A stretch of DNA of 64,000 nucleotides from Pseudomonas sp. S04 (GTDB lineage Bacteria; Pseudomonadota; Gammaproteobacteria; Pseudomonadales; Pseudomonadaceae). The notes beneath the pieces were generated by a model. That model saw nothing but the letters and a program-made list of their open reading frames with translations. It made no database searches and had not been told where the DNA came from. Shown here one piece after another: positions 20,416 through 61,539 of this stretch (positions are counted from its first letter, which is position 1; the number at the start of each line of letters is the position of its first letter). The stretch is from positions 3,168,001-3,232,000 of the forward strand of contig NZ_CP019427.1 of assembly GCF_009834545.1 (NCBI RefSeq). Direction: 5' to 3'. A program made the position numbers and the translations under genes.

Positions 20416-20539
20416 TGGAGAACGCTTCCGGAATGGCGAGCCAGGCGACAAACGATGCGGGACAGACGGTGTCACGACTGCATGATATTTCGCAGTGCAT
20501 TGTAGGGCTTCAGCGCGTTGGCTGCGATCTTTTGATCTT

Positions 20540-24083: not shown

Positions 24084-24403
24084 CCGGAACCTTTGGCCAT
24101 CGCCCGATTGCATAGGGAAACGGGATAGCCCGCTCCAATTTGTCGAGGCAATCGTTGCATGGGACCGGGTGGATCGAGAGCCACCCTCACAGGGGGGGCG
24201 GGTTTGCAAGACACGGTGCGCGCACCATAATCGGCCGAGCTCATTGCATGACACTGCGGCTCAACGGTGCGCCTTGAGGGTTGCGTTAGACCATAGTCTC
24301 GGGCAAAGGCCAAACGTGGCACTATGGCCGGATTTACAAGAATAAAAAGGTCACGTTGCCATGCGCTAGCGTAAGGCGAGTGGTCCGTAGGGAGGTACTT
24401 TCA
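24084..24403. other. Divergent promoter region, no gene
   Basis: These 320 bases lie between the divergent ACAD gene and a MalT-type regulator gene. They include a G-rich tract near 24191. No small gene or clear operator was recognised; promoters for both directions are expected. Confidence 0.5.
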
Positions 24404-46098: not shown

Positions 46099-46791
46099 TT
46101 ATTCCTCCCCACGCTCCACCAGATGATGATGCATTGCTCGCTCGGCACCCGCTGGGTCATTTGATTTGATAAAACCAAGAATGGTCCCGTGCTCCTTGAG
46201 CGTCATCTCGCGGCCTTTGAAACGCAACATGTCCTCGCGGTAGTCGGCCATCCACTCCAGGATTGCGTGAGAAATCGCAATGTAGATCGGGTTCCCGGAG
46301 ATGCGTGCGATTTCGGCATGAAACTCCATGTCGGCGGGAATAAACTCGTCGCTGTCTCGGTACTTGTGCATCTTCGCCAAGGCCGCTTCGAGCCTGACAA
46401 CATCGGCGGGCGTGGCCTGCTGCGCGGCGATCTTGACCAGCCCGGTCTCAAAAAACTCGCGAGCCTGACGCAGGTGGTCGACGTTTTTCGCCGAGCTGGA
46501 AAGCAGATGGCGAGCGGCCAGGTCGATCTGGTTGATCATGGAGTGCATGTCCACACGCCCGACCTTGGCTCGTTCCCCGTGCTGAATGGTGATCATGCCC
46601 ATGCCAGCCAGCCGCTGCATTGCTTCGCGGACTACAGGGCGACCCACGCCGAAGGTTTCCATCAGCTCGCGTTCCGCCGGCATTTGATCGCCGGGCTGCA
46701 GGTTTTCCTCTTGGATGAGTCCGATCAGTTGCTCAAAGACGATGTCAGAAAGCTTCTTGCGTTGAATAGTGCGTTTCTTGATCTCTGACAT
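46099..46791 (-). CDS. GntR/FadR-type (FCD) regulator of the apiose cluster
   Basis: This 230-residue protein has an N-terminal winged helix of GntR type (QPGDQMPAERELMETFGVGRPVVREAMQRLAGMGMITI) in two linked segments. Its helical C-terminal FCD ligand domain carries the usual metal-ligand positions (DMEFHAEIARISGN and HLVERG). It lies 50 bases downstream of the ApnL gene on the same strand. It is the only regulator in the sugar cluster and is therefore the best candidate to bind the TGGTATGAT sites at 48848 and 60752, probably released by a pathway intermediate. Confidence 0.88.
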   Translation of the reverse strand: MSEIKKRTIQRKKLSDIVFEQLIGLIQEENLQPGDQMPAERELMETFGVGRPVVREAMQRLAGMGMITIQHGERAKVGRVDMHSMINQIDLAARHLLSSSAKNVDHLRQAREFFETGLVKIAAQQATPADVVRLEAALAKMHKYRDSDEFIPADMEFHAEIARISGNPIYIAISHAILEWMADYREDMLRFKGREMTLKEHGTILGFIKSNDPAGAERAMHHHLVERGEE

Positions 46792-46841
46792 TAATCGACA
46801 TCTCTATCGTGAAAGCGTAAATAGCGGCAACGTTAACGTGA

Positions 46842-48038
46842 TTATAAGCCACTCTCAACATTACATTGGCAGTCCAGAACGAGCACGCCATAAGGCGCAA
46901 TGACAGGCAGGCCGTAGCCAGGGCTGAATCTTCGGTGAATGAAGCCCGGATCGTTCTGTGCGCTGCTACAGGTATCGGCATCCAGGCGAGTGATGCCATC
47001 AATGCCCATCCCGGTCAACTCGATGGCCTGCTCACGGCCTGTCAGGTTGGCCACCCATACCTCAATCCCTTTCTCCTCTCGCCAGGCCAGCACGGAAACG
47101 GCCGCCGAAGAAGCGCCAATATCCAGGGCGGTTTTACCTCGGCCTCGGTTCAACCCTCGCAAGGCATGAAAGATCGGCCACAACTCGCCGGACTCCGCGA
47201 CCGCGAAAGGTTGATTGACGGCCCACAGCGCTATGGCGTCGACGCCTGCCCGCTGGACGGCGGCGTAGTGCGCCACCGTCCAGGCGGCCGCGAACTGGCC
47301 TCGCTGGCGTGGATCCTGGTCGCTGAGGGTCACACGCTCGCGCCGTGGATTGGGCGTCAGTTGGCCGCCGTACGGGTTGCGCCAGGCACCGATGGCCGTG
47401 GTGGTCAGGCGATAGGGTTTGCCGTGGGCCAGTAGACGCGCCGAGCGGGCGATATCGCCCAGTGATTGCAGGGACTCCATCACCGACAGGTCATCGGCTG
47501 CATGCACAATGGGCGAAGTCGCGTGGGTCAGATAATCGAATCGCTCGGCAGCCGGGCGACAGCGATTCAATTCAGTGAAGTAGGTTGGAACGCCGCCACC
47601 GATCAGGTAGCCAGGCAGCAGCTCGGCGGTAAGCGCGGCAATATCGTCGGGGGTTGGGCCGTTTGGCCACTGGCCGTTGGGCTGGTAACTCTCCAGATAG
47701 GTTGCCGGCGTGGCCAGAATGCCTCGCGGGACACAGGGCGCGGTTGCCAGCATCCGGGCCAGGTCGCGTATTTGTTTCTCTGGCGTCTGGTCACTGACAA
47801 TCACCAACAACCAGGCCTCGGTCTGGGTACGCTGACACACCGATAAAGCGTCGCGCAGCCGTTCAAGACTGCCGGGTTGGCGAAGATCGACCAGCAACTC
47901 CAGGTGCGCACCACCGAGTTGCTCGATCAGCGTTTGAACGGCGTCCACGTCTTCCAGGTGGTTGACCCACAGACCATGGCCCAGTGCAGGCAACGGATGT
48001 GCGGATGTACCTTCGATGGCGATGCGGATGGTGCTCAT
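46842..48038 (-). CDS. apnL: D-apionate lactonase, C-terminal TIM-barrel part (split gene)
   Basis: This 398-residue protein has a glycosidase-like barrel pattern (HLELLVDLRQ, TPATYLESYQPNG, GGGVPTYFTELNR, ATSPIVHAADD, AIALWAVNQP) but is not a known sugar hydrolase by itself. As I recall, homologues are often fused after a beta-sandwich like the product of 48035. The characterised apionate pathway uses such a protein, ApnL, to open D-apionolactone to D-apionate. Here the two parts are separate genes overlapping by ATGA at 48035-48038. Start at 48038 is set by that overlap. Family assignment rests on motif memory and context. Confidence 0.62.
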   Translation of the reverse strand: MSTIRIAIEGTSAHPLPALGHGLWVNHLEDVDAVQTLIEQLGGAHLELLVDLRQPGSLERLRDALSVCQRTQTEAWLLVIVSDQTPEKQIRDLARMLATAPCVPRGILATPATYLESYQPNGQWPNGPTPDDIAALTAELLPGYLIGGGVPTYFTELNRCRPAAERFDYLTHATSPIVHAADDLSVMESLQSLGDIARSARLLAHGKPYRLTTTAIGAWRNPYGGQLTPNPRRERVTLSDQDPRQRGQFAAAWTVAHYAAVQRAGVDAIALWAVNQPFAVAESGELWPIFHALRGLNRGRGKTALDIGASSAAVSVLAWREEKGIEVWVANLTGREQAIELTGMGIDGITRLDADTCSSAQNDPGFIHRRFSPGYGLPVIAPYGVLVLDCQCNVESGL

Positions 48039-48763
48039 GGCCGGTAGTCCTGATTGCGTAGCACGGTCAGTTCGATGCGCTGTTCGACGCGCTGACCTGC
48101 CTCAATGACGTACGGGCAAGGCAACGCCAGCGGCCGGTTATACGTCTTGAACGAGGCATCGGACCAATTGCGCTGGTCCTCCATTTCAAACACATCGCCA
48201 CTCAGGCGCCAGTCCAGCACCAGGCCGGGCGCAGGTGAATGCACCAGGCCGGCGATATCGAAAAAAGGCTGACTCGCACTGATCAGGTCAGGGAAGACGC
48301 CCTCTTCTTGCTGGTTATCGCTATGGATCACAGACACCGGTGCGCCGACGACTCCGTCGAGTGGGTGCAGCAGCATCAACCCGGCGCGGCAGGTGGAAAA
48401 ATCCCGCCGCGCGCTCAACTCGGCCTTGATCGATAGCCTGTCGCCACGGATGTCCATCTCCAATCGCCAGTCCAGCACCGGCTTGTCGGCGTTAGAAGCC
48501 ACTATCCCCTCGACCTTCCGCCACCATTGTCGATGCTCCGAGCGGGTTTCCAGGCGTTGCTGGAGCAGGTGATGCGTCCCCCAGAATTCATCACGTATCA
48601 CCAGGCCGACACTGCGCATGATCTCCCGTTGGTCGACACAAAAGCGCCGTAACTGCGCACCTTCGGCAACAAAGGTCAGGTCCAGCATCGCTACTTGCTG
48701 CCCTTCGGCAGGCGGCTGCGAAGTGCCGTAAAGACGGTAATCCTGGGCTTGCGATGAGCTCAT
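48035..48763 (-). CDS. apnL: D-apionate lactonase, N-terminal beta-sandwich part (split gene)
   Basis: The start at 48763 (MSSSQAQDYRLYG) has AGGA upstream. The 242-residue product is beta-rich and contains IRDEFWGTH, GLMLLHPLDG, ISASQPFFDI and GDVFEMEDQRNWSDASFKTY. The EMEDQRNW-DASFKTY wording is what I recognise from the N-terminal half of large fused lactonase-like proteins. It is translated ahead of the barrel part, with a four-base stop/start overlap in a different frame. It is the first gene of the minus-strand transcript and faces the ABC transporter operon. Together the two parts sum to about 640 residues. Confidence 0.62.
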   Translation of the reverse strand: MSSSQAQDYRLYGTSQPPAEGQQVAMLDLTFVAEGAQLRRFCVDQREIMRSVGLVIRDEFWGTHHLLQQRLETRSEHRQWWRKVEGIVASNADKPVLDWRLEMDIRGDRLSIKAELSARRDFSTCRAGLMLLHPLDGVVGAPVSVIHSDNQQEEGVFPDLISASQPFFDIAGLVHSPAPGLVLDWRLSGDVFEMEDQRNWSDASFKTYNRPLALPCPYVIEAGQRVEQRIELTVLRNQDYRP

Positions 48764-48841
48764 CGACGAGATTCCTGCTCTGGTTATGGTTGGCATCAAG
48801 GTAGGACCCAATGCGCACAAGCTTAGGAAAAAGACTCTACC

Positions 48842-48869
48842 TTGAACTGGTATGATGATGATATATAGT
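48842..48869 (+). promoter_or_regulatory. Predicted sigma-70 promoter with embedded TGGTATGAT operator half-site
   Basis: TTGAAC (48842-48847) and TATAGT (48864-48869) are separated by 16 bases, a plausible -35/-10 pair for the transporter operon starting at 48926. TGGTATGAT (48848-48856) lies in the spacer and matches the left part of the palindrome at 60752. A repressor bound here would block the promoter. Confidence 0.5.
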
Positions 48870-48925
48870 GATGACTGAACCTCCTAACAAGTACAAAAAA
48901 ATCGCCTTGAGGCGAGGAGATCTGC

Positions 48926-49672
48926 ATGGGCTTGACTGTATCCGGTAAACCTTCGGGGTTTTCCCGAGGCGTCCCAGCTGTTGCGATAGTGGCTGTCGTG
49001 GCTGCAGCGCTGGTGGCCACGACGTTGATTGGCGGCCCGCTCGTCAGCCTGCGCCCCCTTGATCCGGCCACCGGCCGAGTCGTACTCAACACGGCGCAGA
49101 GCGCCAACGCCAAAGGGCTCAACCAGAAATTCGCGATCAACAGTTTTAATCCCGAGCAGTTTGTCGAGCAGCAATGGGCCAGCGACGTGCAACCGGTGCT
49201 GGACAAGGACGCCGTCGACCTGCCAACCGTGCTCGCTGCCATCGCCGCAAACCCTGCTGATGCAGCCACACGTTTCGCCGTTCCCCATCCAGGCGCGACA
49301 AAAAACTTCGTGGTCAGCGGCACCGCGCGCGTTGCCGAGGCCAACCTGAAGTCACCCTTGGGGCTGCTCACGCTGGAGTTCCCCGACAACCCTGAGCTGG
49401 TCGGGCAAAAGATTCAACTGCTGACCGGCCCGTTAGTCATCAGCACTGCACTGCGCGATGTCGCCAGCAATATGTCGTTGAACGCATTTACCAACCAGAC
49501 CCAATACGCCGACGTGGCCGCCGCCCTCAACAAGCAAGCATTGGCCCGTGCCTACGGGCAGGTTCCGGCCGCCAGCCTGGCAGGCAAGACGGTCACGTTC
49601 AGTGGTGTGTTCAACCTGCAATCGCCCACCACAATCCGCATCGTGCCCGTCAGCCTGACGGTGGAGGAGTAG
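48926..49672 (+). CDS. DUF2291 protein of sugar ABC transporter operon
   Basis: This 248-residue protein has one N-terminal membrane segment (AVAIVAVVAAALVATTLIGG) and a DUF2291 body with FAINSFNPEQFVEQQWASDVQPVL and a C-terminal TVTFSGVFNLQSPTTIRIVPVSL. Family members sit with sugar ABC transporters of the ribose/xylose type and are probably anchored in the periplasm; their exact task is not known. It is the first gene of the plus-strand operon, and its stop is three bases before the ATPase start. Confidence 0.85.
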   Translation: MGLTVSGKPSGFSRGVPAVAIVAVVAAALVATTLIGGPLVSLRPLDPATGRVVLNTAQSANAKGLNQKFAINSFNPEQFVEQQWASDVQPVLDKDAVDLPTVLAAIAANPADAATRFAVPHPGATKNFVVSGTARVAEANLKSPLGLLTLEFPDNPELVGQKIQLLTGPLVISTALRDVASNMSLNAFTNQTQYADVAAALNKQALARAYGQVPAASLAGKTVTFSGVFNLQSPTTIRIVPVSLTVEE

Positions 49673-49675
49673 CCG

Positions 49676-51256
49676 ATGAACGCGCACTCCCCCGCCCTCA
49701 CGCTAGCCATGCGCCTGCGGCAGATACGCAAGGTGTACCAGGGCACTACCGCGCTCAAAGGCGTGGACTTTGATGTGGTGCATGGCAAGGTCAATGTGCT
49801 GATTGGCGAGAACGGCGCCGGCAAATCGACGTTGATGAAAATCCTCGCGGGGATCGAGCAGCCAACTTCCGGGCAGATGTTCGCCGGCGAACAGGCATTG
49901 ACGCTGAACAGTCCCCGCGAAGCCATGGCCCGTGGCATCGGTATCGTGCATCAGGAGCTCAACCTGTGCCCGAACCTCAGCGTTGCCGAGAACATGTTCA
50001 TCGGCAAAGAGCGATGCACCCGCTTTGGTCGGGTCTTGCACGGCGAGCAGCGCCAATTGGCGCACGCCACCCTGCAGCGCATGGGCCAGGACATCGACGT
50101 CGATGCGCTGGTGCAGGATCTGAGCATCGGTAAGCGGCAGATCGTCGAGATCGCCAAAGTGTTGGTAAGTGATGTGCGGGTGCTGATCCTCGACGAACCC
50201 ACCTCTTCGCTGAGCGAAGCCGAGGTCGGTATTCTGTTTTCGCTGATCACCGACCTCAAGCGTCAGGGCGTCTCGATCATCTACATCTCCCATCGCCTGG
50301 ATGAACTGATCGAGATCGGCGACCACTTCACCGTCCTGCGCGACGGCCATCTGGTGGGCACTGGTGTGCGCGACGCCGTCACCGTCGACTGGCTGGTGGA
50401 GCGCATGATCGGCAGCCAGATGAACACTCAATTGCGCACTGGCACCGACCCTGCGGTGCATCAACTGGCACCTGTCGTACTGCGGGTTTGCGACCTGGAA
50501 GTGGCGAGCGATCAAGGTTCGCTGTTATTGAACAAGGTTTCGTTCAGCATACGACGCGGCGAGATCGTCGCGTTCTACGGACTGATGGGCGCAGGCCGCA
50601 CCGAACTGTTCGAAACCCTGATCGGTCTGCGACGCGCCATCGGCGGACGCATCGAGATCAACGGCCAAACCCTGCCATTGGCGCAGGATATCGCCGGTCG
50701 CATACGCGCCGGTATTGCCCTGGTGCCCGAGGACCGGCAGAAGCTCGGGCTGGTTGCCAGCGCCAGCGTGCGCGACAACTTGTTGCTGGCCAATCTAACC
50801 CGCTACAGCCGCGCCGACGGTCTGGCTCGCCAGCCGATGGACGACGACGTGGCACGGATGATTCGCGAACTGCACATCAAGGCCGAGCATGCCGACGTCG
50901 CGATTTCTTCACTGTCCGGCGGCAACCAGCAGAAAGTCGTGGTGGGCAAGAACCTGCTTACAGAACCCCATGTGTTGCTGCTCGACGAGCCGACCCGCGG
51001 GATCGACATCAAGGCCCGGCGCGAGCTGTTCGAGGTGCTGGATCGCCTGGCGAAGAACGGCCTGACAATTCTCTATGCCTCCAGCGACCTGACCGAAATC
51101 ATCGGTGGCGCAGACCGGGCACTGGTGATGTGTCAGGGCCGCATCACCGCCAATCTAACCCGCCAGCAACTGGACGAACCCACACTGGTGGGCTGGTCGC
51201 AAGTCTCGCGCAAGGACTCGACAGCCTTGGCGCCCACTGAAAAGGAAACTGCATGA
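49676..51256 (+). CDS. Sugar ABC transporter ATP-binding protein (RbsA/XylG type)
   Basis: This 526-residue protein has two fused ABC domains. The first has Walker A GENGAGKST (residues 44-52), LSIGKRQIVEIAK as signature region and ILDEPTSSL as Walker B. The second has the usual degenerate Walker A GLMGAGRTE, then LSGGNQQKVVVGK and LLDEPTRGID. It powers uptake by the permease and binding protein encoded next. The ATG at 49676 follows GAGGAG. The permease ATG overlaps its stop. The transported sugar is inferred to be D-apiose from the catabolic neighbours. Confidence 0.93.
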   Translation: MNAHSPALTLAMRLRQIRKVYQGTTALKGVDFDVVHGKVNVLIGENGAGKSTLMKILAGIEQPTSGQMFAGEQALTLNSPREAMARGIGIVHQELNLCPNLSVAENMFIGKERCTRFGRVLHGEQRQLAHATLQRMGQDIDVDALVQDLSIGKRQIVEIAKVLVSDVRVLILDEPTSSLSEAEVGILFSLITDLKRQGVSIIYISHRLDELIEIGDHFTVLRDGHLVGTGVRDAVTVDWLVERMIGSQMNTQLRTGTDPAVHQLAPVVLRVCDLEVASDQGSLLLNKVSFSIRRGEIVAFYGLMGAGRTELFETLIGLRRAIGGRIEINGQTLPLAQDIAGRIRAGIALVPEDRQKLGLVASASVRDNLLLANLTRYSRADGLARQPMDDDVARMIRELHIKAEHADVAISSLSGGNQQKVVVGKNLLTEPHVLLLDEPTRGIDIKARRELFEVLDRLAKNGLTILYASSDLTEIIGGADRALVMCQGRITANLTRQQLDEPTLVGWSQVSRKDSTALAPTEKETA

Positions 51257-52356
51257 TGGCCGATTCTCTTTCCATGCCTGCCCGAAAATCTACCGCGTTG
51301 AACATGCGCTCCCTACCGTTGTTGCTGCTCCGACTGCGCGCCTACCTGGCGCTGGCGCTGCTGGTGGTGCTGTTCTCCTCCATTGCGCCGTCGTTCCTGT
51401 CGGCCCGTAACCTGGTCATCGTGACCGAGCAGGTGGCGGTGTTCGCAATCCTGGGTATCGGCATGACGTTCGTCATCCTTGCGGCCGGCATCGACCTGTC
51501 CGTTGGCGCAGTGGCGGGACTGGCCGCGATGGTCGCCGGCTACTTGATCACCGAGGGGCTGCGCCTGCCATGGCTGGGCGTCTCGGCGTTTTTCAGCATT
51601 CCGGTCGTGTGTATTCTGAGCCTTGCGCTGGGGACCCTGGTGGGCGCGGTCAACGGCTGGTTCATCACGCGCCTGAAAGTCACGCCGTTCATCATGACCC
51701 TGGGCATGCTGTACATGGCCCGTGGCGCGGCGCAACTGGTGTCCGGTGGAGCCACGTATGGCGACCTCACGGGCCAGGTCGAACTGAACAACAGCGGTTT
51801 CCTGCTGCTGGGCACTGCGCGGCTGTTGTCCGTGCCGGTGTCAATCTGGCTGATGATCCTGTTGACCCTGGTGGCCGTGTACATCAGCCGCAAGACCGTT
51901 TTTGGTCGCCAGGTGTTCGCCATTGGCGGCAACGAACGCACCGCCGAGCTCTCGGGCGTGCGGGTCAGTCGGGTGAAGATTGGCACCTACGCTATCTCCG
52001 GCTTCTGCGCCGCCCTGGCGGGGCTGATCATTGCCTCGCGCCTGGGCGCCGCCAACCCGGCCATCGCCACCTCCTACGAACTCAACGCTATCGCCGTGGT
52101 GGTGCTGGGCGGCGCCTCGCTGTTCGGGGGCGTAGGTACCATTGGCGGCACGATCATCGGTGCCTTTGTCCTCGGGGTGCTAAGCAACGGGATGGTACTG
52201 GTGGGTATTTCCGACTTCTGGCAGACCGTTATTACCGGCGCGGTGATCGTACTGGCCGTGGTGGTCGACCAATTGCAACGCCGTGTCGAAAAATCAAGCG
52301 CAGAACGCCAGGCCAAAGCCCAGGAAGACCGGGGTACGCCGAGCACCACTGCGTGA
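51253..52356 (+). CDS. Sugar ABC transporter permease (RbsC type)
   Basis: This 367-residue membrane protein has 8-10 hydrophobic segments and RbsC-family landmarks: GIGMTFVILAAGIDLSVGA, TRLKVTPFIMTLGMLYMARGAA, GGNERTAELSGVRV and VVVLGGASLFGGVGTIGG. It forms the inner-membrane channel of the transporter. Its ATG at 51253 overlaps the ATPase stop codon. The first of the two tandem ATGs (ATGATGGCC) is taken. Confidence 0.93.
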   Translation: MMADSLSMPARKSTALNMRSLPLLLLRLRAYLALALLVVLFSSIAPSFLSARNLVIVTEQVAVFAILGIGMTFVILAAGIDLSVGAVAGLAAMVAGYLITEGLRLPWLGVSAFFSIPVVCILSLALGTLVGAVNGWFITRLKVTPFIMTLGMLYMARGAAQLVSGGATYGDLTGQVELNNSGFLLLGTARLLSVPVSIWLMILLTLVAVYISRKTVFGRQVFAIGGNERTAELSGVRVSRVKIGTYAISGFCAALAGLIIASRLGAANPAIATSYELNAIAVVVLGGASLFGGVGTIGGTIIGAFVLGVLSNGMVLVGISDFWQTVITGAVIVLAVVVDQLQRRVEKSSAERQAKAQEDRGTPSTTA

Positions 52357-52387
52357 CTTTCAATCACATAAAGGGATGACTACAACA

Positions 52388-53353
52388 ATGAAAAAACTCT
52401 TCTCCCGTCAGTTGCTTTCCCTGGCCATGTTGTCCGCGTCGATGCTGCCGCTGGCGGCCACCGCCGCAGAATTCAAAACCTCGGATCATCTGATCGTGGT
52501 CATCACGCCGTCGCACAGCAATGCGTTTTACAAGGCCGAATCCGATACTGCCGTTGCGGCGGCCAAGAAGCTCGGTTATCGCACCAACGCGCTGGTGCAT
52601 CAGGACGATCCGGACATCCAATTACGCCTGGTGCAGACCGCCATCGGCGACAACGCCTCTGCGATCATTCTCGACAACGCCGGTTCCGACGCCTCCATCG
52701 CAGCGGTGAAGCGTGCACAGGAAGCGAAGATTCCGGTGTTCCTGATCGATCGGGAAGTCAACGCCAACGGCATTGCCACGGCGCAGATCGTTTCCAACAA
52801 CTCACAATGCGCGACGTCAGTTGCGGAATACTTCGCCGAGCAGGTCGGTTTCAAGGGTGAATATGTGGAGCTGATCGGGCGCACTTCCGATGTCAACGCC
52901 CATGTCCGCTCGGAAGGTTTCCATCGCGTGCTCGACCAGATCCCGGATTTGAAAATGGTCTCGCAGCAGTCAGCCAACTGGGACCAGACCCAGGGCTACA
53001 ACGTCATGCAATCGATCATCCAGGCTCACCCGAACATCGTCGGCGTCCTGGCCGGCAACGACACCATGGCACTGGGCGCCGCCGCGGCGTTGAAGAACGC
53101 CGGCAAGGGCGAAGTGAAAGTAGTCGGCATCGACGGCAACCCCGATGTCGTCCGGCAGATTACCGGTGACGGCCCGATCATCGCCACCGGCCTGCAACAG
53201 GCGACGCAAATGGCGGCGATGGCCATGGAACAGGCCGATCAGCTTCTGCGCACCGGCAAGACCGACAAACCCGAGAAGCAATCGGTGGATTGCGTAATGG
53301 TCTCCAGAGACAACAGCAAGCAAGTGCGTGAGGGCGGATTCGGCATGCGCTGA
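52388..53353 (+). CDS. Sugar ABC transporter periplasmic binding protein
   Basis: The start at 52388 (MKKLFSRQLLSLAMLSASM) opens a clear signal peptide ending ATAA; the frame above lies inside the permease gene. The 321-residue protein has the Peripla_BP_4/RbsB fold: VVITPSHSNAFYKAES, VFLIDREVN, GVLAGNDTMALGAAAAL and VVGIDGNPDV. It delivers sugar to the permease. It is the last gene of the operon, not the first as in many such systems. Ligand is probably D-apiose or a related branched sugar, by context. Confidence 0.92.
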   Translation: MKKLFSRQLLSLAMLSASMLPLAATAAEFKTSDHLIVVITPSHSNAFYKAESDTAVAAAKKLGYRTNALVHQDDPDIQLRLVQTAIGDNASAIILDNAGSDASIAAVKRAQEAKIPVFLIDREVNANGIATAQIVSNNSQCATSVAEYFAEQVGFKGEYVELIGRTSDVNAHVRSEGFHRVLDQIPDLKMVSQQSANWDQTQGYNVMQSIIQAHPNIVGVLAGNDTMALGAAAALKNAGKGEVKVVGIDGNPDVVRQITGDGPIIATGLQQATQMAAMAMEQADQLLRTGKTDKPEKQSVDCVMVSRDNSKQVREGGFGMR

Positions 53354-53361
53354 GTGGCAAA

Positions 53362-53386
53362 TGTCCCCATGCGGTGCGTGGGGACA
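53362..53386. terminator. Hairpin between convergent sugar genes
   Basis: TGTCCCCA and TGGGGACA form a perfect 8-bp stem with a 9-base loop in the 40-base gap between the binding-protein and apsD genes. There is no T run, so terminator strength is doubtful. Confidence 0.5.
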
Positions 53387-53393
53387 TCCCTGT

Positions 53394-54440
53394 TCAAGCA
53401 GCTACAAACCTGGCGGGCACCACCGTGGTTCCTCTGCTCGCAGATTCATACGCAGCCTCCACCAACGCCTGGGTGTTGAAGTTATCCGCACCCGAGGTCT
53501 CCGACTCCCGGTTGCCACGTCGATCAGCCAACCACTCACGCTGCAAGCGCAGCACGCTTTCCTGTATCGGCTGCCAGGGGGCATCACTCCAGGTAGGCGC
53601 ATCCGGCGAGACATCCAGTGTTTCGACATTCCCCTGGGCGTCGTGGATCTGCAAGCGAAAGTCCGCCAGCAGGCGCAACGAGCCGCGATCGCCGTCCACC
53701 TCGAGCAGACTCTGCGGGAACGGGTCACTGGCCAGTTGGGTCGCATAGCTGAAGTCCACCACGCTGGTCGCCCCCTGCTCGTGCGCCAGAAGCACCGTCG
53801 CGACGTCCTCGCCTGCTATTGCGCCATTGACCCGACGGGTCTCGCAAGTCAGTCGCGAGACATCGCCAAACAACGCCCGGGCGATGTCCAGCACATGCAC
53901 GCCGAGGTCCTCGATGATGAAGCGCGGAGCCTTCGCCAGATACGGTTGCAAGCGATAGACATCGAAGCCGCTGCGAAAGCTCACGCGGCCAAAAAAGGCG
54001 GTGCCGATCACCCCGCTGCGCAGCTGTTCGATCGCTGCCCGAACCGGCGCCTGCCACCGAAAATTCTCATGCACGGTCAAGCTCACACCCAGGGCCGCAC
54101 AGGTGTCGATCATCAGCCGGGCATCGTCCAGCGTTGCCGCAAACGGTTTCTGGCAGATGATATCGACACCCGCCTCGGCGCCCATCAGCACCAGCGCCTT
54201 GTGCGCCGAGGTCGGTGTCGCGATGTCGACAAAATCCAGTTCCAACTCGCCCAGCATGGCCTGCGCATCGGTATAGGTTGCCGCGTCCGGCGCATGTTCA
54301 GCGAAGGCCGCTAGCCGTTGCGGGTCGCTGTCGCACAGGGCAACGATCTGCACGCCACTGAGGTCCTGCCAGGCGCGCAGCTGATTGAGGGCGAAAAAGC
54401 CACAACCGATCAGCGCACCACGCAACGGTGGACGGTCCAT
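53394..54440 (-). CDS. apsD: Gfo/Idh/MocA oxidoreductase, probable D-apiose dehydrogenase
   Basis: This 348-residue protein has the N-terminal NAD-binding motif IGCGFFA, the conserved Lys-Pro in CQKPFAATL and the C-terminal domain His in EDLGVHVLDIARALFG. In the characterised apiose route a Gfo/Idh/MocA enzyme, ApsD, oxidises D-apiose to D-apionolactone with NAD. The neighbours supply each later step, so that function is the best fit. It is the last gene of the minus-strand operon and is set off from apnO by an intrinsic terminator. Another sugar dehydrogenase activity is possible. Confidence 0.72.
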   Translation of the reverse strand: MDRPPLRGALIGCGFFALNQLRAWQDLSGVQIVALCDSDPQRLAAFAEHAPDAATYTDAQAMLGELELDFVDIATPTSAHKALVLMGAEAGVDIICQKPFAATLDDARLMIDTCAALGVSLTVHENFRWQAPVRAAIEQLRSGVIGTAFFGRVSFRSGFDVYRLQPYLAKAPRFIIEDLGVHVLDIARALFGDVSRLTCETRRVNGAIAGEDVATVLLAHEQGATSVVDFSYATQLASDPFPQSLLEVDGDRGSLRLLADFRLQIHDAQGNVETLDVSPDAPTWSDAPWQPIQESVLRLQREWLADRRGNRESETSGADNFNTQALVEAAYESASRGTTVVPARFVAA

Positions 54441-54463
54441 TGTTCATCTCCTTGGCTGCAGAT

Positions 54464-54501
54464 AAAAAAAGACGCCCGGAGGTGTTCACCGCCCGGACGT
54501 C
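54464..54501 (-). terminator. Intrinsic terminator/attenuator between apnO and apsD
   Basis: On the minus strand GACGTCCGGG and CTCCGGGCGTC form a strong stem (about 9-10 pairs including wobbles) followed immediately by seven T residues. It lies 27 bases past the apnO stop and 24 before the apsD start, so it should reduce or stop transcription into apsD. Confidence 0.8.
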
Positions 54502-54527
54502 AAAAAGTACTTGGTTTTCAGTATGGA

Positions 54528-55397
54528 TCAAGCCGCATCGGCTTTGCGCACTGCATCGATTTTCAACATGCGGGCAATGATCAGGTCGAGTTCTTTCTCG
54601 TCGAAGATCTTCTTCCAGTCCGGCTTGATGATCTTCTCGCGGCCATATTCCATGGCAATCATGCAGGCATCGGAGAATGGGTTGGTGCTGCGGAAGGACA
54701 CCGCCAGCGCAATCTGGATATGGCCATAGAGCATGGCCTTGGCCGCCGCTTCAGGGACACCGATGCGGTTGATGGTCTCGTCCAGCGCTTCTTTCATGAA
54801 ACTACCGACCATGCAGGCGACGGTTTCCACCAGCGTTGGCTCCAGATAGGCCAGTTGCTTGACGGTTACCCAATGCACTTCGCCAACCGGGCCGTACATT
54901 ACCGCGATAATGTTGGCCAGTTCCGAGCGCTGCTTGTCGTTGCCGGTTTCAAACGCGGCGCAGACATCCTGCACCGCCGCGTTACCGCCGAAGGCATCGG
55001 CGTGTTCTTCCTTGGTGTAGCGCTCCAGAAATACCGAGGGATGGCAAGGGTGCGCCACGGCCTGGTGAATGCCATCGCGCTGGGCCAGCAGTCCGGCATA
55101 GGACGCCGCCGGGTCGAGGGTCAGCAGGATCGCGCCGCTCTTCATCTGTGGCACGACCTGTGCCGATACGGCTTCGAGGGCCACGTCCGGCACGGCCAAA
55201 ATCACCACATCGGCCTGCGGCACGACATCGTTGGTGGCCGACAGGCTGCGCCCCGCCGCGACAATCTGCTCCTGAGCCTTGGGCGAGTTTTCGCAGTAGG
55301 CAACACTGTAATGGCTGCCTTGCAGGTTTTGCGAGATGCGCATGCCCATCTTGCCGCCGGCACCCACAATCGCAATTTTGTTGAGTTCGTATGTCAT
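54528..55397 (-). CDS. apnO: Probable D-apionate oxidoisomerase
   Basis: This 289-residue protein has a Rossmann start IAIVGAGGKMGMRIS and a C-terminal helical domain of the 6-phosphogluconate dehydrogenase C-terminal kind. HPCHPSVF and YGPVGEVHWVTVKQLA lie in the active-site half. ApnO, the enzyme that oxidises and rearranges D-apionate to 3-oxo-isoapionate, belongs to this type. The next gene, OiaC-like, uses that product, and starts five bases away. A different beta-hydroxyacid dehydrogenase remains possible. Confidence 0.75.
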   Translation of the reverse strand: MTYELNKIAIVGAGGKMGMRISQNLQGSHYSVAYCENSPKAQEQIVAAGRSLSATNDVVPQADVVILAVPDVALEAVSAQVVPQMKSGAILLTLDPAASYAGLLAQRDGIHQAVAHPCHPSVFLERYTKEEHADAFGGNAAVQDVCAAFETGNDKQRSELANIIAVMYGPVGEVHWVTVKQLAYLEPTLVETVACMVGSFMKEALDETINRIGVPEAAAKAMLYGHIQIALAVSFRSTNPFSDACMIAMEYGREKIIKPDWKKIFDEKELDLIIARMLKIDAVRKADAA

Positions 55398-55401
55398 GGG
55401 G

Positions 55402-56208
55402 TCATTCCTCGGTTTGCTTTGTATTCAGGTAGTTCAGGTTATGTCGGGTCCACTGGTCTTCGAGCGCGCAGGTGGTGGCCGCGTCGAGTTGCCAGGGGAG
55501 CCAGTGTTCGATGATCTGGTTGATGTGCCGGCTGTTCGGTCGAACCTTGCCGCGCATGTAGGCGTAGTCCAGCAGGCCCTCGCCCATTGGGCATCCTGCG
55601 AAGGTAAAACCGACCCAGCCATCGCGCCGGGAAAAGGCGAAATCCTTGACGTGCAGGTTCAGTACCCGTTCCGCGGTCATGTCGATGACCTCGCGCGGAT
55701 TTTCCAGCGCTGCCACGCAATTGCCGGGGTCCAGGCAGATACCCAGCCACGGGCTGTCGATACGTTCGACGACATCCAGTACGGTGCGCGTCGGCACTTG
55801 CTCGTAGGTCTCCAGGGCCAGCTTGACGTCCTGCTCGACGAACTGCGGCATTACCCTTTGCAGCAGTTCGAAGGCCTGTTCGGACGTCGGTTTCAGGCTG
55901 TTGCTGTTGAACATACTGCGCAACACGCGCACATCCAGGGCCTCGGCGATACTCAGGTACTTGCGCAGGTGTTCGGTGTCCAGGCCACGAGTACCCAGTT
56001 CCAGCACCAGTCCGAGGTCGTCGGCCTGGCGCCTGAGGTCGCCCAGCTCGCTGGCACTCAATGCTTCAAGCGCCTTGTAGTCGCAGATCTGGAATACCCC
56101 GGCGCCCAGCTCAGCGGTCTGCTGCAGCATTTGTGGCAGATACAGCGGTTGCGGGACGCGCTCGCTGGCACGCCAGAAGAACGAATAGGTACTCAGGCCG
56201 ATTGCCAT
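55402..56208 (-). CDS. oiaC: Probable 3-oxo-isoapionate decarboxylase (TIM-barrel)
   Basis: This 268-residue protein is of the sugar-phosphate isomerase/epimerase (AP endonuclease 2-like) TIM-barrel family. Likely metal ligands are Glu in LALETYEQ, Asp in CLDPGNC and His in LHVKDFAF, with a further Glu near the C-terminus. OiaC of the apionate pathway is in this family and gives L-erythrulose and CO2. The gene overlaps lerI by 16 bases. Without the neighbours it would be called only an epimerase-like protein. Confidence 0.72.
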   Translation of the reverse strand: MAIGLSTYSFFWRASERVPQPLYLPQMLQQTAELGAGVFQICDYKALEALSASELGDLRRQADDLGLVLELGTRGLDTEHLRKYLSIAEALDVRVLRSMFNSNSLKPTSEQAFELLQRVMPQFVEQDVKLALETYEQVPTRTVLDVVERIDSPWLGICLDPGNCVAALENPREVIDMTAERVLNLHVKDFAFSRRDGWVGFTFAGCPMGEGLLDYAYMRGKVRPNSRHINQIIEHWLPWQLDAATTCALEDQWTRHNLNYLNTKQTEE

Positions 56209-56996
56209 GATGCGCCCTCCATTTCACGGGCAGACGTAGGGCCGCAGAGCTTTGCCGCCTCGTCGAGAATCGATTGAAAAGCGCCTGGATCATGGGCGAA
56301 GCGCCCCAGGAACAGGCCGTCGACCTGGCCACCCAACTGGCTCAGTAATCCGGGGCCGGCGCTGCCGCCATAAATCACCCGAGTGCCGCTCCCGGCCACG
56401 GCATTGCGCAACGCCTGGCACACTTGACCGATGTACTCGGCGGACGCTGGTTGAGCCGCGCCGATGGCCCATTGCGGTTCGTAAGCGAGGATCAGCTCGC
56501 CGCTCAGACCGGCCTGGCGGGCCGAGGCCAATGCAGCATCGAGCTGTTGCAGACACACCTGCACCGCATCCTGTACCCGACCGTGACGTTCCTCGCCCAG
56601 GCACAGCACCGGGGTCAAGTCATTGCGCCAGGCCGCGGCGGTCTTGTCGGCAATCTGCCGATCGGTCTCGGCGAAGTACCGACGTCGCTCGGCGTGCCCG
56701 ATCTCGGCGACGCTGCAGCCCATCTCACGCAACATCAGCGGACTGACTTCACCGGTGTAGGCGCCTTGATCTTCCCAGAACAGATTCTGCGCACCGACCC
56801 GGGCCAACCCGTCGAAGATCTCCAGCACAGGCGTCAACGTCGGGTGGCTGGGAATCACGAATACCTCGATCGCTGCGCTGCGCACATCGGCATGGGCGCT
56901 CAGTTGCCGGGCAATGGCCTGGCACCATTCCAGGGTTTGGCGATAGCCGAAATACATCTTCAGGCTGACACCGAGCGTGATGACGGGTGTGCTCAT
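56193..56996 (-). CDS. lerI: Triosephosphate isomerase homologue, probable L-erythrulose-1-phosphate isomerase
   Basis: The start at 56996 overlaps the derI stop (ATGA). The 267-residue protein keeps the catalytic residues of TIM: Lys13 in SLKMYFGY, His in EIGHAERR and Glu in AYEPQWAIG, with YGGSAGPG for phosphate. The NWKMN motif of housekeeping TIM is replaced by VSLKMYF, as expected of a paralogue with a four-carbon substrate. LerI converts L-erythrulose 1-phosphate to D-erythrulose 4-phosphate. Its place between derI and oiaC supports this. Confidence 0.8.
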
Positions 56997-57463
56997 CGTG
57001 CGCTGACCCGCTCGTAATCGGTCAGGGTCTGGACCTTCTGCGCAGACGCCGAATGCTCGTCGAAGCGATAGGTCAGCCACTCCTTGAGCAGGCGCCGAGC
57101 CAACTCCAGGCCAATCACTCGTTGACCGAGCGTCAGCACCTGGGAGTTGTTGCTCAACACCGCGCGCTCCACCGAAAAACTGTCATGGGCGGTCACTGCG
57201 CGAACCCCCGGCACCTTGTTGGCGGAGATGGCCATGCCCAGCCCGGTGCCACAGATCAGCAGCGCACGGTCAGCCGCACCGGATGCGACCTTTTCCGCAG
57301 CCGCGATGGCCACCAGCGGATACGCGGTGTGGCTCTGGCTGTCGACGCCGACGTCTTCGATCAACTCGACATCCGGGTTGGCAAGCAGGTCGCGCTTGAG
57401 CGCTTCCTTGTATTCGTAACCGGCGTCATCCGAGCCGATGACGATGCGCAGTGGGTTATTCAT
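56993..57463 (-). CDS. derI: RpiB-family isomerase, probable D-erythrulose-4-phosphate isomerase
   Basis: The start at 57463 ([15 protein letters not shown]) has GGAGA upstream; longer forms lie in lerK. The 156-residue protein is of the RpiB/LacAB type, with the active Cys in [22 protein letters not shown] and a [10 protein letters not shown] end. The usual ribose-5-phosphate region HN-N is changed to LSNNSQ, fitting a four-carbon substrate. DerI makes D-erythrose 4-phosphate from D-erythrulose 4-phosphate. It overlaps lerK by eight bases and lerI by four. Confidence 0.82.
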
Positions 57464-59219
57464 GAACTGTCTCCTCGATACGACGGGGTGCCAGCGTGCC
57501 GGCCCGCAGGACGGGCTCGATGGCATTGATGATCAGGGAAAGCGACACGGCGCCGGCATCCGGTGTACCGAGGCTTTTTTCCGCCAGAGGGCGGGCGCGG
57601 CCGATACGTGGGCGCAGGTCGGCAGTGGCGGCCGCTGCCTCGGCAGCCACCTGAGCAGCCAGTTGCCAGGCGTGATGCAACTCCAGGCCGCGTGCGGCAG
57701 CCTCGCTCAGCGCTGAACTGAACGGCACCAGAACGTCAACCATGGTCTTGTCGCCCACCTGCGCCTTGCCAAAGTGCTGAATGCCGTCGCTCGCCTGGCG
57801 AATCCCTTGGGCCACTAACCTCGCGTCTGGATCCAGAACATCCCCAAGCGAGGTGCCAAGCGCGGTCAGCAGTACGCCCCAGATCGCCCCCGACGTCCCA
57901 CCGGCCTGATCGGCCCAGGCATCGGCGGCCATGCGCAACAAGGTCCCGGCACCCGCCTCCATGGCCAGGACTTCGCCCGCCCTGCCCACTGCGGCGATGA
58001 TTCCACGCTGCATGCCGATGCCATGATCACCGTCGCCGGCCACCGCATCGATACGGCCGAGTTCATCGACCTGTTCGATCAGCACTTTTTGCGCTGCCTC
58101 CAGCGCCTGCATGACGCAATGCGCCGAGCGCCGAGACTTGGTGCTGGAGGGTGGAATCACCGTTACCGCTACCACGGGCGCGTGCTCTTCGCTCAAGCGT
58201 TCGGCAACGCGGGTCACGCCCTTGCGATAAGCCGGGGTCGATGTCGGTGCGCACCAAAAGCCTTCCAGCTCCTCGTCCAGCCAGCACAGGGTCAGCGACA
58301 AACCCGCCATGTCGAAACTGGTGACCAGTTCACCCACTTCAGGCTCGACCACGGTCAGTCCGCTGGCTTCGAGTAGTTGCGCGACCCGCCGATAGAGCAC
58401 GAACAGCTCTTCGTACTTGACGCTGCCAAGACCGTTGAGGATGACCGCGACACGCTGCCCGGCCACCTCGGTGATACCTTGCGGCAGCTCCTTGAGCAGC
58501 GACGAGACTAAAATCTCGGCTAGTTCATCGGCACTTGGCACCGGGCCTTCGCTAATCCCGGGTTCACCATGAATACCCATGCCCAGCGCCATCTGGCCCT
58601 GCGGCACGTCGAACAACGGATGGTCGGCGCCCGGCAACGTGCAGCCAGAGAACGCCACACCCAGCGAGCGGGTGCGAGCATTGGCATGCCGTGCAACACG
58701 CACCACAGCATCGAAGTCATATCCCGCCTCGGACGCCGCGGCCGCCGCCTTGAACACCACCAGGTCACCGGCAATGCCACGACGCTTGTGCAGCTCGTCA
58801 CTGGAAGCGCTGGAGATATCGTCCGTGACCGCGATCACCTCGCAGCGGATGCCTTCGGCGTTCAATCGATCCTTGGCCAGGCCGAAATGCAGCACGTCCC
58901 CGGCATAGTTGCCATACCCCAGCAACACCCCACCGCCGGTCTGCGCGGCACGGGAGACAGCATAGATCTGCTGCGCGGAGGGCGAGGCGAACAGGTTGCC
59001 CATCACTGCCGCGTGGGCCAGGCCCTGGCCAACCAGTCCCGCGAACGCCGGGTAATGCCCCGAGCCACCACCGATCACCACGGCAACCGAACCCTCTTGA
59101 GAGCGGGTGCAGCGCATCACTCCGCCGGGCACCTGGCGTACTTTGTCGCGGTGCGCGGCGACAAACCCCTCCACCAGCTCACTGGTGAAGGCTGAAGGTT
59201 CATTGAACAAACGGGTCAT
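57456..59219 (-). CDS. lerK: DhaK-DhaL fusion kinase, probable L-erythrulose 1-kinase
   Basis: This 587-residue protein is an ATP-dependent dihydroxyacetone kinase homologue. The N-terminal DhaK part has [12 protein letters not shown] and the substrate-binding His217 in GMGIHGEPG. The DhaL part from about residue 385 has the ATP-Mg aspartates in [11 protein letters not shown] and GGTSGAIWG. LerK enzymes of this family phosphorylate L-erythrulose. The setting next to LerI and DerI homologues favours that over dihydroxyacetone. It starts three bases after the MFS gene ends. Confidence 0.82.
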
Positions 59220-59222
59220 TTC

Positions 59223-60596
59223 TTATTCTCCCTGGAGGACCTGTTGCGTAGCGGCCAGCGGTGCTGCATCGACAACCCGCCGCCGCGTGCCGAGCGCCAC
59301 CATCAGCACCGCGGACATCAGCATCAGTGCGCCGACCACCATCATCGGAACCGCGTAGGTACCGGTGTAATCCTTGAGGGCGCCAGTGATGAAGCCCGCA
59401 GAGAAGCCCGCGACGTTGCCGACGGTGTTGATCAGTGCCACAGCAGCCGCAGCCGAGGCCCCGGTGAGGAACTGGGTCGGCAGCGTCCAGAAGTTGGGCA
59501 GCGCAGCGAAGATCGAGCAGGCGGTAATCGTCACCACGGCCACGGTGGCTGTCGGCGAGCCCATGGCCATGGCCAGCGGAATGCTCACTGCGCCGGTCAA
59601 TGCGGGCAGCGCGATGTGCCAGGTGCGGCAGCCACGACGGGTCGCATCACGGGACCAGAGGTAGAGCACCAGAGCCGCCGGCAGATACGGAATCGCGGTG
59701 ATCAGGCCCTTCTCGAATACCGTGAACGTGGTGCCGAACTGAGCCTGGAAACCGCCGATGATGGTGGGCAGGAAGAACGACAGCGCATACAGCCCGTAGA
59801 TAAAGCCAAAGTAGATCAGGCACAGCATCCAGACTCGCCCGTTGAGCATTGCCGCGCGGACACCCATGTGGTGTGGGCTGCGACGAACATCGACGCGCTC
59901 GCGGTCGAGTTCGCCGACCAGCCAGGTTTTTTCATCGGCGTTCAGCCACTTGGCCTGGGACGGGTGATCGACCAGATAGAACCAGGCAATCAAGCCCACC
60001 ACGATGGCCGGCAGCGACACCCCCAGGAACATTACCCGCCAGCCGGACAGACCGAACAGACCGTCATGGCCGATCAACCACGCGGCCAACGGTGCGCCGA
60101 TGACGATGGTCAGCGGCTGGGCGAGATAGAACAGCGAGAGGATCTTGCTGCGATAGCGGGCAGGCACCCACAGGCTGAGGAACAGGATCGCTCCAGGGAA
60201 GAAGCCCGCTTCCGCGATCCCCAGTAAAAAGCGCAGGGTGTACAAGCCCTCGATACTGCTCACCCAGGTGAACAACAGCGAAACGATGCCCCACGACACC
60301 ATGATCCGCGCCAGCCACTTACGCGCGCCGAACTTGTGCAGTGCGAGGTTGCTTGGCACTTCCAGCAGGATGTAACCGATGAAAAAGATCCCCGATGCCA
60401 GGCCGTACTGGATGACGCTCAGACCAAGGTCCTGATTCATGCCATTGGGTCCGGCGAAGGAAATCGCCGTGCGGTCGAGGAAGTTGATGAAAAACATCAG
60501 TGCCACGAAAGGCACCAGGCGCAGCGAGATCTTACGGATAGCCGATTGCTCGGCCGGAGATGCGGAGATGTTCTGCATTGCGGTTCTCCGGCTCAT
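59223..60596 (-). CDS. MFS transporter, anion:cation symporter family
   Basis: This 457-residue protein has about 12 membrane segments, INFLDRTAISFAGP in the first, YILLEVPSNLALHKFGAR and LGIAEAGFFPGAILFLSLW, all ACS-family traits. It could import an acid of the route such as D-apionate, or a ketose. Two starts are possible: 60596 (AGGA seven bases upstream) and 60578 (GGAG seven bases upstream); the longer is listed. It is the first gene of the seven-gene minus-strand operon ending with apsD. Confidence 0.87.
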   Translation of the reverse strand: MSRRTAMQNISASPAEQSAIRKISLRLVPFVALMFFINFLDRTAISFAGPNGMNQDLGLSVIQYGLASGIFFIGYILLEVPSNLALHKFGARKWLARIMVSWGIVSLLFTWVSSIEGLYTLRFLLGIAEAGFFPGAILFLSLWVPARYRSKILSLFYLAQPLTIVIGAPLAAWLIGHDGLFGLSGWRVMFLGVSLPAIVVGLIAWFYLVDHPSQAKWLNADEKTWLVGELDRERVDVRRSPHHMGVRAAMLNGRVWMLCLIYFGFIYGLYALSFFLPTIIGGFQAQFGTTFTVFEKGLITAIPYLPAALVLYLWSRDATRRGCRTWHIALPALTGAVSIPLAMAMGSPTATVAVVTITACSIFAALPNFWTLPTQFLTGASAAAAVALINTVGNVAGFSAGFITGALKDYTGTYAVPMMVVGALMLMSAVLMVALGTRRRVVDAAPLAATQQVLQGE

Positions 60597-60906
60597 CTAC
60601 AGGTCCTTTGGCAGGACTGGTGTGATGAGATGACGTTCTTATTAGGACCGCTGAAAGGCGGCGATCCAAACCTGGGCCTGGCTTCAGCAACGAAGCTCGA
60701 GGGCTTGGGCTAATTTCTAACACGGGGATTTTAATTTGTATACTGTGATGATGGTATGATCTCTATACCAGACCAAAAAAAGGCCTCATCGGCGCCCTAA
60801 GCGTGAGCAGCCAGCGCTATTTTCCGAGCCTTTTGCCATTCATCGGAACAGAGTCAACACGCAACGCCGAGGGTTCGCGCTGACAAAGCAAGCATCTGCC
60901 CAGGTG
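60597..60906. other. Control region of the apiose operon, and 3' flank of the kinase-like gene
   Basis: These 310 bases hold the palindrome at 60752-60770 and a weak GGGC/GCCT hairpin followed by seven T residues (minus strand, about 60774-60797), a possible terminator for the kinase-like gene at 60907. No coding region was recognised. Confidence 0.5.
60752..60770. promoter_or_regulatory. Palindromic operator, GntR-type (TGGTAT-N7-ATACCA)
   Basis: TGGTATGATCTCTATACCA is a perfect 6-bp inverted repeat with a seven-base centre, about 155 bases above the MFS start. TGGTATGAT recurs in the promoter at 48848. FadR/NanR-type regulators bind such sites, and one is encoded at 46099. Confidence 0.65.
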
Positions 60907-61539
60907 CTATGCACTAGCGTCTACAGAGCCGCGAAGGACCCTATGGATCTGCGCAACCACCTGCATCGTCGCTTCTTCGATCGTTCCTTCATTGCGGCAC
61001 AAAGCCCAGCAGTGATCTGCAATCGCGCGCTCGAACGCCTGGGTACAAGCGACATGTTCTTCCAGCTTATGGATCACGGTACTGCTCAGCCCACGCTGGC
61101 GTGCCGCGGCCCTCGCCCATGAAACCTCTGGGTCGGTAACAACCCCGACATGCAGGTCTGGCACTTGCACGCCTCGATCAATGTTCAACTGCAGGATCTC
61201 TGCAAACGGGATCTGCCGGCGAAACGCGGCATCGGACGGGTACCAGCGATCGATCAGGATGATGCTGTCCTGTGGCTGTTTAGTCAGCACGTGCTGGGAA
61301 ATCCAGCGGCGACTATCGGCAAAGCGCTGGCAAACCTCCCACTCCAGATCCCGTATGGGATTTCTGACGAACTGGTTTACCAGGGCCATGGTTTCACCCC
61401 TGTAGGGATCGCTTTTACTCTCGCAAAGTCGGATCACCTTTTTGTTGTCTGCCCGCAGTACTTTCGTAACGGCCTCCAACAGTGTGGTTTTACCGGTTCC
61501 CTTGGGCCCATCTAGAGAAACAAACAGCGGACGATTCAT
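60907..61539 (-). CDS. Thymidylate kinase-like P-loop protein
   Basis: This 210-residue protein starts MNRPLFVSLDGPKGTGKTTLL with a P-loop at residues 11-19. DRWYPSDAAFR in the middle resembles the DR[YW] motif of dTMP kinase, and RQRGLSSTVIHKLEEH could serve as lid. The usual dTMP kinase end is diverged, so this is probably not the housekeeping enzyme. Nucleotide or small-molecule phosphorylation is a reasonable guess. No functional link to the sugar operon is visible. Confidence 0.75.
   Translation of the reverse strand: MNRPLFVSLDGPKGTGKTTLLEAVTKVLRADNKKVIRLCESKSDPYRGETMALVNQFVRNPIRDLEWEVCQRFADSRRWISQHVLTKQPQDSIILIDRWYPSDAAFRRQIPFAEILQLNIDRGVQVPDLHVGVVTDPEVSWARAAARQRGLSSTVIHKLEEHVACTQAFERAIADHCWALCRNEGTIEEATMQVVAQIHRVLRGSVDASA

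Follow-up and report, generated by a model that had tools for sequence, protein, structure and literature searches.

The window analysed here, a stretch of 64,000 nucleotides (nt) from Pseudomonas sp. S04 (contig NZ_CP019427.1, positions 3,168,001 to 3,232,000), carries at its positions 46099–60596 an island that unites, as judged by family and context, every gene of the OiaC branch of the oxidative pathway for D-apiose, a sugar of plant walls: ApsD, ApnL, ApnO, OiaC, LerK, LerI and DerI. Its lactonase, ApnL, is encoded by two genes instead of one. All components named in a sequence-only reading of this DNA are intact open frames of the expected family in Pfam and NCBIfam, and the order mfs–lerK–derI–lerI–oiaC–apnO–apsD that it gave agrees with the coordinates of the open reading frames (ORFs). 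The two facing operons that it proposed, in contrast, are three transcription units: mfs to apsD on the minus strand, DUF2291, transporter and binding-protein genes on the plus strand, and apnL_N–apnL_C–gntR on the minus strand. The plus-strand unit (48926–53353) lies between both minus-strand units, convergent with the mfs unit and divergent from the apnL unit.

The mfs unit is headed by a permease gene of the major facilitator superfamily (MFS; mfs, 59223–60596, Pfam MFS_1), a probable D-apionate importer whose nearest relatives are galactonate/HpaX-type carriers. It is followed by the putative L-erythrulose kinase gene lerK (57456–59219; Dak1 and Dak2 domains, PRK14479), the putative D-erythrulose-4-phosphate isomerase gene derI (56993–57463, read from an internal ATG at 57463; RpiB-type, LacAB_RpiB) and the putative L-erythrulose-1-phosphate isomerase gene lerI (56193–56996; triosephosphate isomerase (TIM) family), which overlaps derI by 4 nt. 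The unit continues with the candidate 3-oxo-isoapionate decarboxylase gene oiaC (55402–56208; PF01261/AP_endonuc_2, a xylose-isomerase-like TIM barrel), the putative D-apionate oxidoisomerase gene apnO (54528–55397; PGDH_C, 201.1 bits) and the putative D-apiose dehydrogenase gene apsD (53394–54440; Gfo/Idh/MocA). With the most plausible starts, mfs and lerK are separated by 3 nt, the next three junctions overlap by 8, 4 and 16 nt, and the last two leave gaps of 4 and 87 nt, the wider one between apnO and apsD; these sizes are in keeping with a single transcript. The plus-strand unit encodes a DUF2291 periplasmic protein that is probably a transporter partner (48926–49672), followed by the ATPase with two cassettes (49676–51256), the permease (51253–52356) and the sugar-binding protein (52376–53353) of a CUT2-family ATP-binding cassette (ABC) transporter, each recognised by a family match. 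The apnL unit comprises apnL_N (48035–48763; its start is uncertain, the ORF extending to 48820), apnL_C (46842–48038) and gntR (46099–46791), which encodes a GntR/FCD regulator of the NanR subfamily (NF003011, 272.3 bits against a cut-off of 260).

Elsewhere, ApnL is one protein of approximately 600 residues. The presence of ApnL, as previously read from the sequence, stands. The 595-position ApnL model NF049900 was matched over nearly its whole length; the split itself had been missed, positions 3–231 lying in the frame at 48035–48820 and positions 249–593 in the frame at 46842–48038. A single apnL gene was rejected because the matches fall in two ORFs. Pfam gave no match for either half, even with E-values of up to 10 allowed. 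ApnL was matched in 2 of 298 genomes of the genus and 3 of 293 genomes of the order, always in two pieces. Across the phylum it was found in 15 of 398 genomes: 12 with a single frame (seven of them above the cut-off), two with two pieces, and one, G490, with the N part only. In this last gammaproteobacterium, the lone N-part homologue (L028:9382–10281) covers profile positions 11–227, and the search found no C part. A scan of reference genomes was evaluated for the best 80 of 457 confirmed loci, to which all counts of loci below refer, so that other split forms could be missing from the set. ApnL is split in 15 of them (L033–L046 and L052), belonging to Pseudomonas, Salinicola, Kushneria, Halotalea and Salinisphaera, and lies in a single frame in 65, not all of which are proven ApnL, apsD and apnO both being within the examined DNA in 30. 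Three loci (L035, L041 and L046) were taken to represent the same genomes as G050, G599 and G912, respectively, and were counted once. The recurrence of the split in genus genomes and in these 15 loci led us to reject a sequencing error as its origin.

Together with the window, 16 split cases were available for comparison of the junction. The second start precedes the end of the first stop by 4 nt in 11 cases, 8 nt in one, 11 nt in two and 14 nt in two, so that an ATG lies within 4 to 14 nt of the end of the upstream stop in every case, and in 11, including the window, the two codons form an ATGA overlap. Overlapping frames in all 16 cases could also be expected if a single chain were made by programmed ribosomal frameshifting; however, the downstream frame is offset in one direction in 11 cases and in the other in five, and an ATG close to the upstream stop, often as ATGA, is the usual signature of stop–start coupling. 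The overlap pattern and the mixed offset therefore fit translational coupling and speak against frameshifting, which we regard as very unlikely; the two genes would be translated by stop–start coupling.

If the split were instead a broken gene, a frameshifted or decaying pseudogene whose substrate D-apionolactone opens spontaneously or through another lactonase, low profile scores and rapid divergence would be natural. Indeed, the profile scores of the two parts in the window, 202.3 and 217.7 bits, are below the single-protein cut-off of 750, and the mean identity of the halves in 15 Pseudomonas pairs is 57.0 and 58.5%, versus means of 63.6–92.6% for ten other genes. We nevertheless consider this explanation improbable. 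The same split is shared by 15 relatives, in which both frames are long with the exception of L052, and both window parts retain many of the positions that are conserved in at least 97.5% of 80 aligned proteins. The ratio of nonsynonymous to synonymous substitution rates (dN/dS) of the halves is well below 1, at 0.17 to 0.35, in three of four pairs (L034/L035, window/L033 and L046/L052), the value for window/L033 being rough at a dS above 1. Fused ApnL, moreover, evolves about equally fast: at an ApsD identity of 70–80%, the N and C regions show identities of 57.1 and 58.5% in fused proteins (9 pairs) and of 56.8 and 62.1% in split ones (19 pairs), while at 80–90% the values are 81.8 and 81.2% for fused (122 pairs) and 64.6 and 70.9% for split proteins (2 pairs only). 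The split as a cause of faster evolution was rejected on this comparison. By their dN/dS, both halves look constrained in three of the four pairs. Some observations weigh against this picture: in L041/L043, dN/dS is 1.58 for the N part and 0.33 for the C part, on dS values of just 0.010 and 0.065; the C-part frame of L052, from an uncultured Kushneria, has an early stop and 277 codons in all; and, as fused ApnL also outpaces its neighbours, the fast evolution of the halves is uninformative about the split.

An ApnL tree of 80 rows (the window and 79 loci) was built with a quick method, which flagged long branches, including L089 versus the gammaproteobacterial clade. In this tree, the 17 gammaproteobacterial rows group together in a single clade (support 100), and the single-frame ApnL of Salinicola rhizosphaerae (L047) is nested within Salinicola. 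The simplest history is therefore probably a single fission in an ancestral gammaproteobacterium, at the boundary between the domains, with one re-fusion in S. rhizosphaerae. One locus was omitted from the tree, L091 from a Mesorhizobium metagenome-assembled genome, whose fused ApnL has a stop codon in the N-terminal domain.

Structure models, each based on an alignment of four sequences, reached a mean predicted local distance difference test score (pLDDT) of 75.9 for the C part and 72.1 for the N part. For the C part, the model shows a TIM barrel with a beta domain, nearest to GH30 xylanases at 9–12% identity, and for the N part a beta-sandwich with best matches to beta-galactosidases, followed by aldose 1-epimerases, galactose mutarotases and YidC. 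These proteins have the beta-supersandwich fold in common, and we read the N-part matches as this shared fold. The fission point lies between the two folded domains. Residues conserved in at least 97.5% of the 80 rows include E212, E214, D215, R217, N218, W219, D221 and K225 in the N part and E156, N158, R159, H179, D182 and D183 in the C part, several of them within low-confidence stretches of the models (N 214–228; C 152–160 and 176–181). This distribution suggests that the two parts may complete each other's active site.

The nearest solved relatives of ApsD, ApnO, LerI and the binding protein support the D-apiose assignment. The closest ones of ApsD and ApnO are PDB 5uhw (E 1.4e-115) and 5t57 (E 5.9e-59), both of which we take to be D-apiose pathway proteins, and those of the binding protein are 5ibq (E 8e-91) and 4ry0 (E 5.1e-90), the former presumably an apiose-bound structure. 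LerK scores 759 bits with the subfamily model PRK14479 (cut-off 492), matches the dihydroxyacetone kinase 1un9 (E 4.9e-59) and is the only match of its kind in its own genome. LerI belongs to the TIM family and contains the motifs SLKMYF, GHAERR and AYEPQW, which we take to hold the catalytic Lys, His and Glu; it is distinct from the organism's own TpiA, which has NWKMH and is encoded elsewhere in the genome, and its second-best solved match, 11ef, is named 'L-erythrulose-1-phosphate isomerase'. DerI passes TIGR02133, named ribose-5-phosphate isomerase (197.5 versus 168.2 bits), and matches 3qd5, a putative ribose-5-phosphate isomerase (E 4.6e-61). Against these assignments stand the slightly higher score of LerI with the putative triosephosphate isomerase 3s6d, presumably of fungal-type origin (157.7 bits, against 146.1 for 11ef), the score of DerI below NF051858, the DerI equivalog of Rhizobium type (144.7 versus 240 bits), and the fact that the NCBIfam matches of ApsD, ApnO, OiaC, LerK and LerI include no specific equivalog. 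A parallel set of enzymes for another branched or rare sugar could be envisaged, given that we infer the substrates of the enzymes and that ApnO shares just ~36–40% identity with its counterparts in most alphaproteobacterial loci. Such a substrate seems improbable, as the binding protein is nearest to 5ibq, ApsD shares 57% identity with its counterpart in the locus of Paraburkholderia graminis, and the ApnL equivalog profile is matched over almost its entire length.

Neighbourhood analysis points to the same branch. An OiaC homologue accompanies ApnL in 16 of 16 gammaproteobacterial loci (the 15 split ones and L047) and in none of the 64 others. A search for the RuBisCO large subunit (PF00016) gave no match in the window's own genome, while the control search was positive in 5 of 14 genomes. 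The enzyme of the other oxidative branch is therefore missing there. The families, solved relatives, kept neighbourhoods and this missing match together uphold the route through OiaC and L-erythrulose put forward in the sequence-only reading. Within the examined DNA, the gene order is kept in the five Pseudomonas loci L033–L037, with lerI, derI or lerK beyond its edge in some, and in G050 it is kept through to mfs. In Salinicola (G599) and Kushneria (G912), lerK and lerI homologues with 64–66% and 52–53% identity lie elsewhere in the genome, beside an RpiB homologue that is just 43–46% identical. The Kushneria region (L130:3824–11089) holds lerK–lerI near this RpiB homologue, a SorC-like regulator and an apparently two-ORF transketolase, with families read from the ORFs. 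The separate position of lerK and lerI in these two Halomonadaceae, and LerI and DerI types that are known from erythritol and threitol pathways, would suit an island serving mainly L-erythrulose, erythritol or threitol. We find this most unlikely, since apsD, apnL, apnO and oiaC are linked in six Pseudomonas (the window and L033–L037) and none of the families encoded in the island comprises polyol kinases or polyol dehydrogenases.

The distribution of the uptake genes indicates a modular arrangement. At E up to 1e-40, OiaC was found in 3 of 298 genomes of the genus, those of the window, G050 and G022, and these are the only places where mfs was observed. G022, which is not one of the two genus genomes with an ApnL match, carries a compact operon mfs–lerK–derI–lerI–oiaC–apnO–gntR in one direction (L139:10972–17901); homologues of apsD, apnL and the ABC genes are missing from the 34 kb examined, the rest of the genome not having been searched for apsD or ABC genes. 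This operon is a probable D-apionate-only core module, which in turn suggests that the MFS protein serves D-apionate and the ABC system D-apiose. The best NCBIfam matches of the MFS protein, HpaX and D-galactonate transporter, are both below cut-off. A membrane dehydrogenase dependent on pyrroloquinoline quinone (PQQ) scored above the family cut-off in all three genomes searched (G000, G022 and G050). The D-apionate that the MFS protein probably takes up would include any produced outside the inner membrane. The ABC system probably imports D-apiose, and the ABC, ApsD and ApnL genes would form an add-on for intact apiose. A DUF2291 homologue is present in 28 of the 32 loci with a binding-protein homologue, and the DUF2291 protein is therefore probably a transporter component. 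In the draft genome G050, the ABC permease homologue was matched in two pieces in different frames (L024:14496–15576).

Candidate operators were found at two promoter regions of the island. The pattern CTGGTATNNNGATNATA occurs at 48847–48863 (plus strand), in a conserved block of the divergent apnL/ABC promoter region in Pseudomonas, and upstream of mfs at 60752–60771, the latter site containing TGGTAT-N7-ATACCA. These are its only two occurrences in 6.1 Mb, with none in the backward control; as the pattern was derived from the two sites, their recovery is circular and shows only the lack of a third copy. By a rough hand estimate, chance alone would yield approximately one 13-of-17 match in a pair of promoter regions of this kind. 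L033–L036 retain the divergent-promoter copy in a GGTAT form and G050 retains the mfs copy, and this cross-species conservation, together with the lack of a third genomic copy, supports the candidate. The looser TGGTAT-N7-ATANNA matched the mfs site and one other genomic place (one match in the backward control). Two Salinisphaera loci have the full palindrome between apnL_C and oiaC, with 0 and 1 mismatches, and one Salinicola has it upstream of apnL_N, with 2; its chance expectation is ~0.2 per 21 kb. Several results count against a general operator: the divergent-promoter pattern is missing from L037 and from all remaining split loci beyond L033–L036, the mfs promoter of G022 keeps ATACCA and lacks the first half-site, and 13 of the 19 stretches scanned had no palindrome at up to 2 mismatches. 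We propose that the GntR/FCD regulator probably represses both promoter regions. Other scans of non-coding signals gave no support, with no Rfam match at gathering scores in 44–64 kb, 2 promoter-like sites against a shuffle mean of 3.8 (fewer than in shuffles) and 14 terminator-like sites against 10.7 in shuffles; neither of the last two scans is evidence.

Taken together, we are largely confident that the island supports growth on D-apiose and D-apionate by the oxidative OiaC route with a two-subunit lactonase. D-apiose would be imported by the CUT2 ABC system with the DUF2291 protein and oxidised by ApsD to D-apionolactone, which ApnL-N and ApnL-C, as subunits of one lactonase, would open to D-apionate. 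ApnO would then form 3-oxo-isoapionate, OiaC would decarboxylate it to L-erythrulose, and LerK, LerI and DerI would lead to D-erythrose 4-phosphate. D-apionate, such as that from the periplasmic PQQ glucose dehydrogenase, could enter directly through the MFS protein. The analysis itself shows which genes are present, that the split is conserved, that the halves are under constraint, that OiaC goes with them and that the layout is modular; the substrates, the heteromer, the targets of the regulator and the coupling are inferred. With less assurance, although we favour it, gammaproteobacterial ApnL may be an obligate two-subunit lactonase with a shared active site, arisen by a single fission and re-fused in S. 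rhizosphaerae. It would then belong to an apionate core module that has an MFS importer of its own and that can gain or lose apiose uptake and oxidation.

Base composition gave no reason to retain a recent horizontal acquisition, which was rejected: in 3-kb steps, GC content is 0.59–0.64 over the island (45–60 kb) and 0.56–0.64 elsewhere in the window. Adjoining the island at 60907–61539 is a gene for a thymidylate-kinase-like P-loop protein, in a region (60–63 kb) with a lower GC content, 0.561, and few long ORFs. Farther away, three large MalT-like LuxR regulators are encoded within ~22 kb (17665–20475, 24356–27142 and 37392–40079).

The curated ApnL model misses the split enzyme because each half is below its cut-off, so annotation that relies on it would make the pathway look incomplete in the Pseudomonas, Salinicola, Kushneria, Halotalea and Salinisphaera concerned. 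Fission followed by a nested re-fusion would offer a natural experiment, from a two-domain enzyme to two subunits and back, and, from the operon with the core alone, D-apionate would seem to be a nutrient itself, with a specific MFS importer. Among the apiose and apionate papers listed in literature searches, no title or abstract opening mentions a two-gene ApnL, which is no proof that it is unpublished.

The oxidative D-apiose pathway was reportedly established in a founding paper by Carter and colleagues in Nat Chem Biol in 2018. In its OiaC branch, the enzyme set and the reaction order from D-apiose to D-erythrose 4-phosphate are the same as in the island, whereas here ApnL is two genes, lerK–lerI–derI share an operon with oiaC–apnO–apsD, an MFS gene heads that operon, and the core occurs alone in G022. 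LerK, LerI and DerI constitute the L-erythrulose module of threitol and erythritol pathways; in Kushneria and Salinicola, the same three enzyme families are encoded away from the apiose genes, but here they lie inside the apiose operon. PMC11747546 describes a Rhodobacteraceae strain that grows on D-apiose by way of a lactonase, a dehydrogenase, an oxidoisomerase, a kinase and a decarboxylase, and RuBisCO-like enzymes belong to the D-apiose pathway according to PMC6302742. The RuBisCO-like branch has ApsD, ApnL, ApnO and the intermediate 3-oxo-isoapionate in common with the island; it then uses a kinase and a RuBisCO-like enzyme, whereas the genome studied here has no RuBisCO-like match. The pathway is already known, and the two-gene lactonase and modular layout make this island a variant of it.

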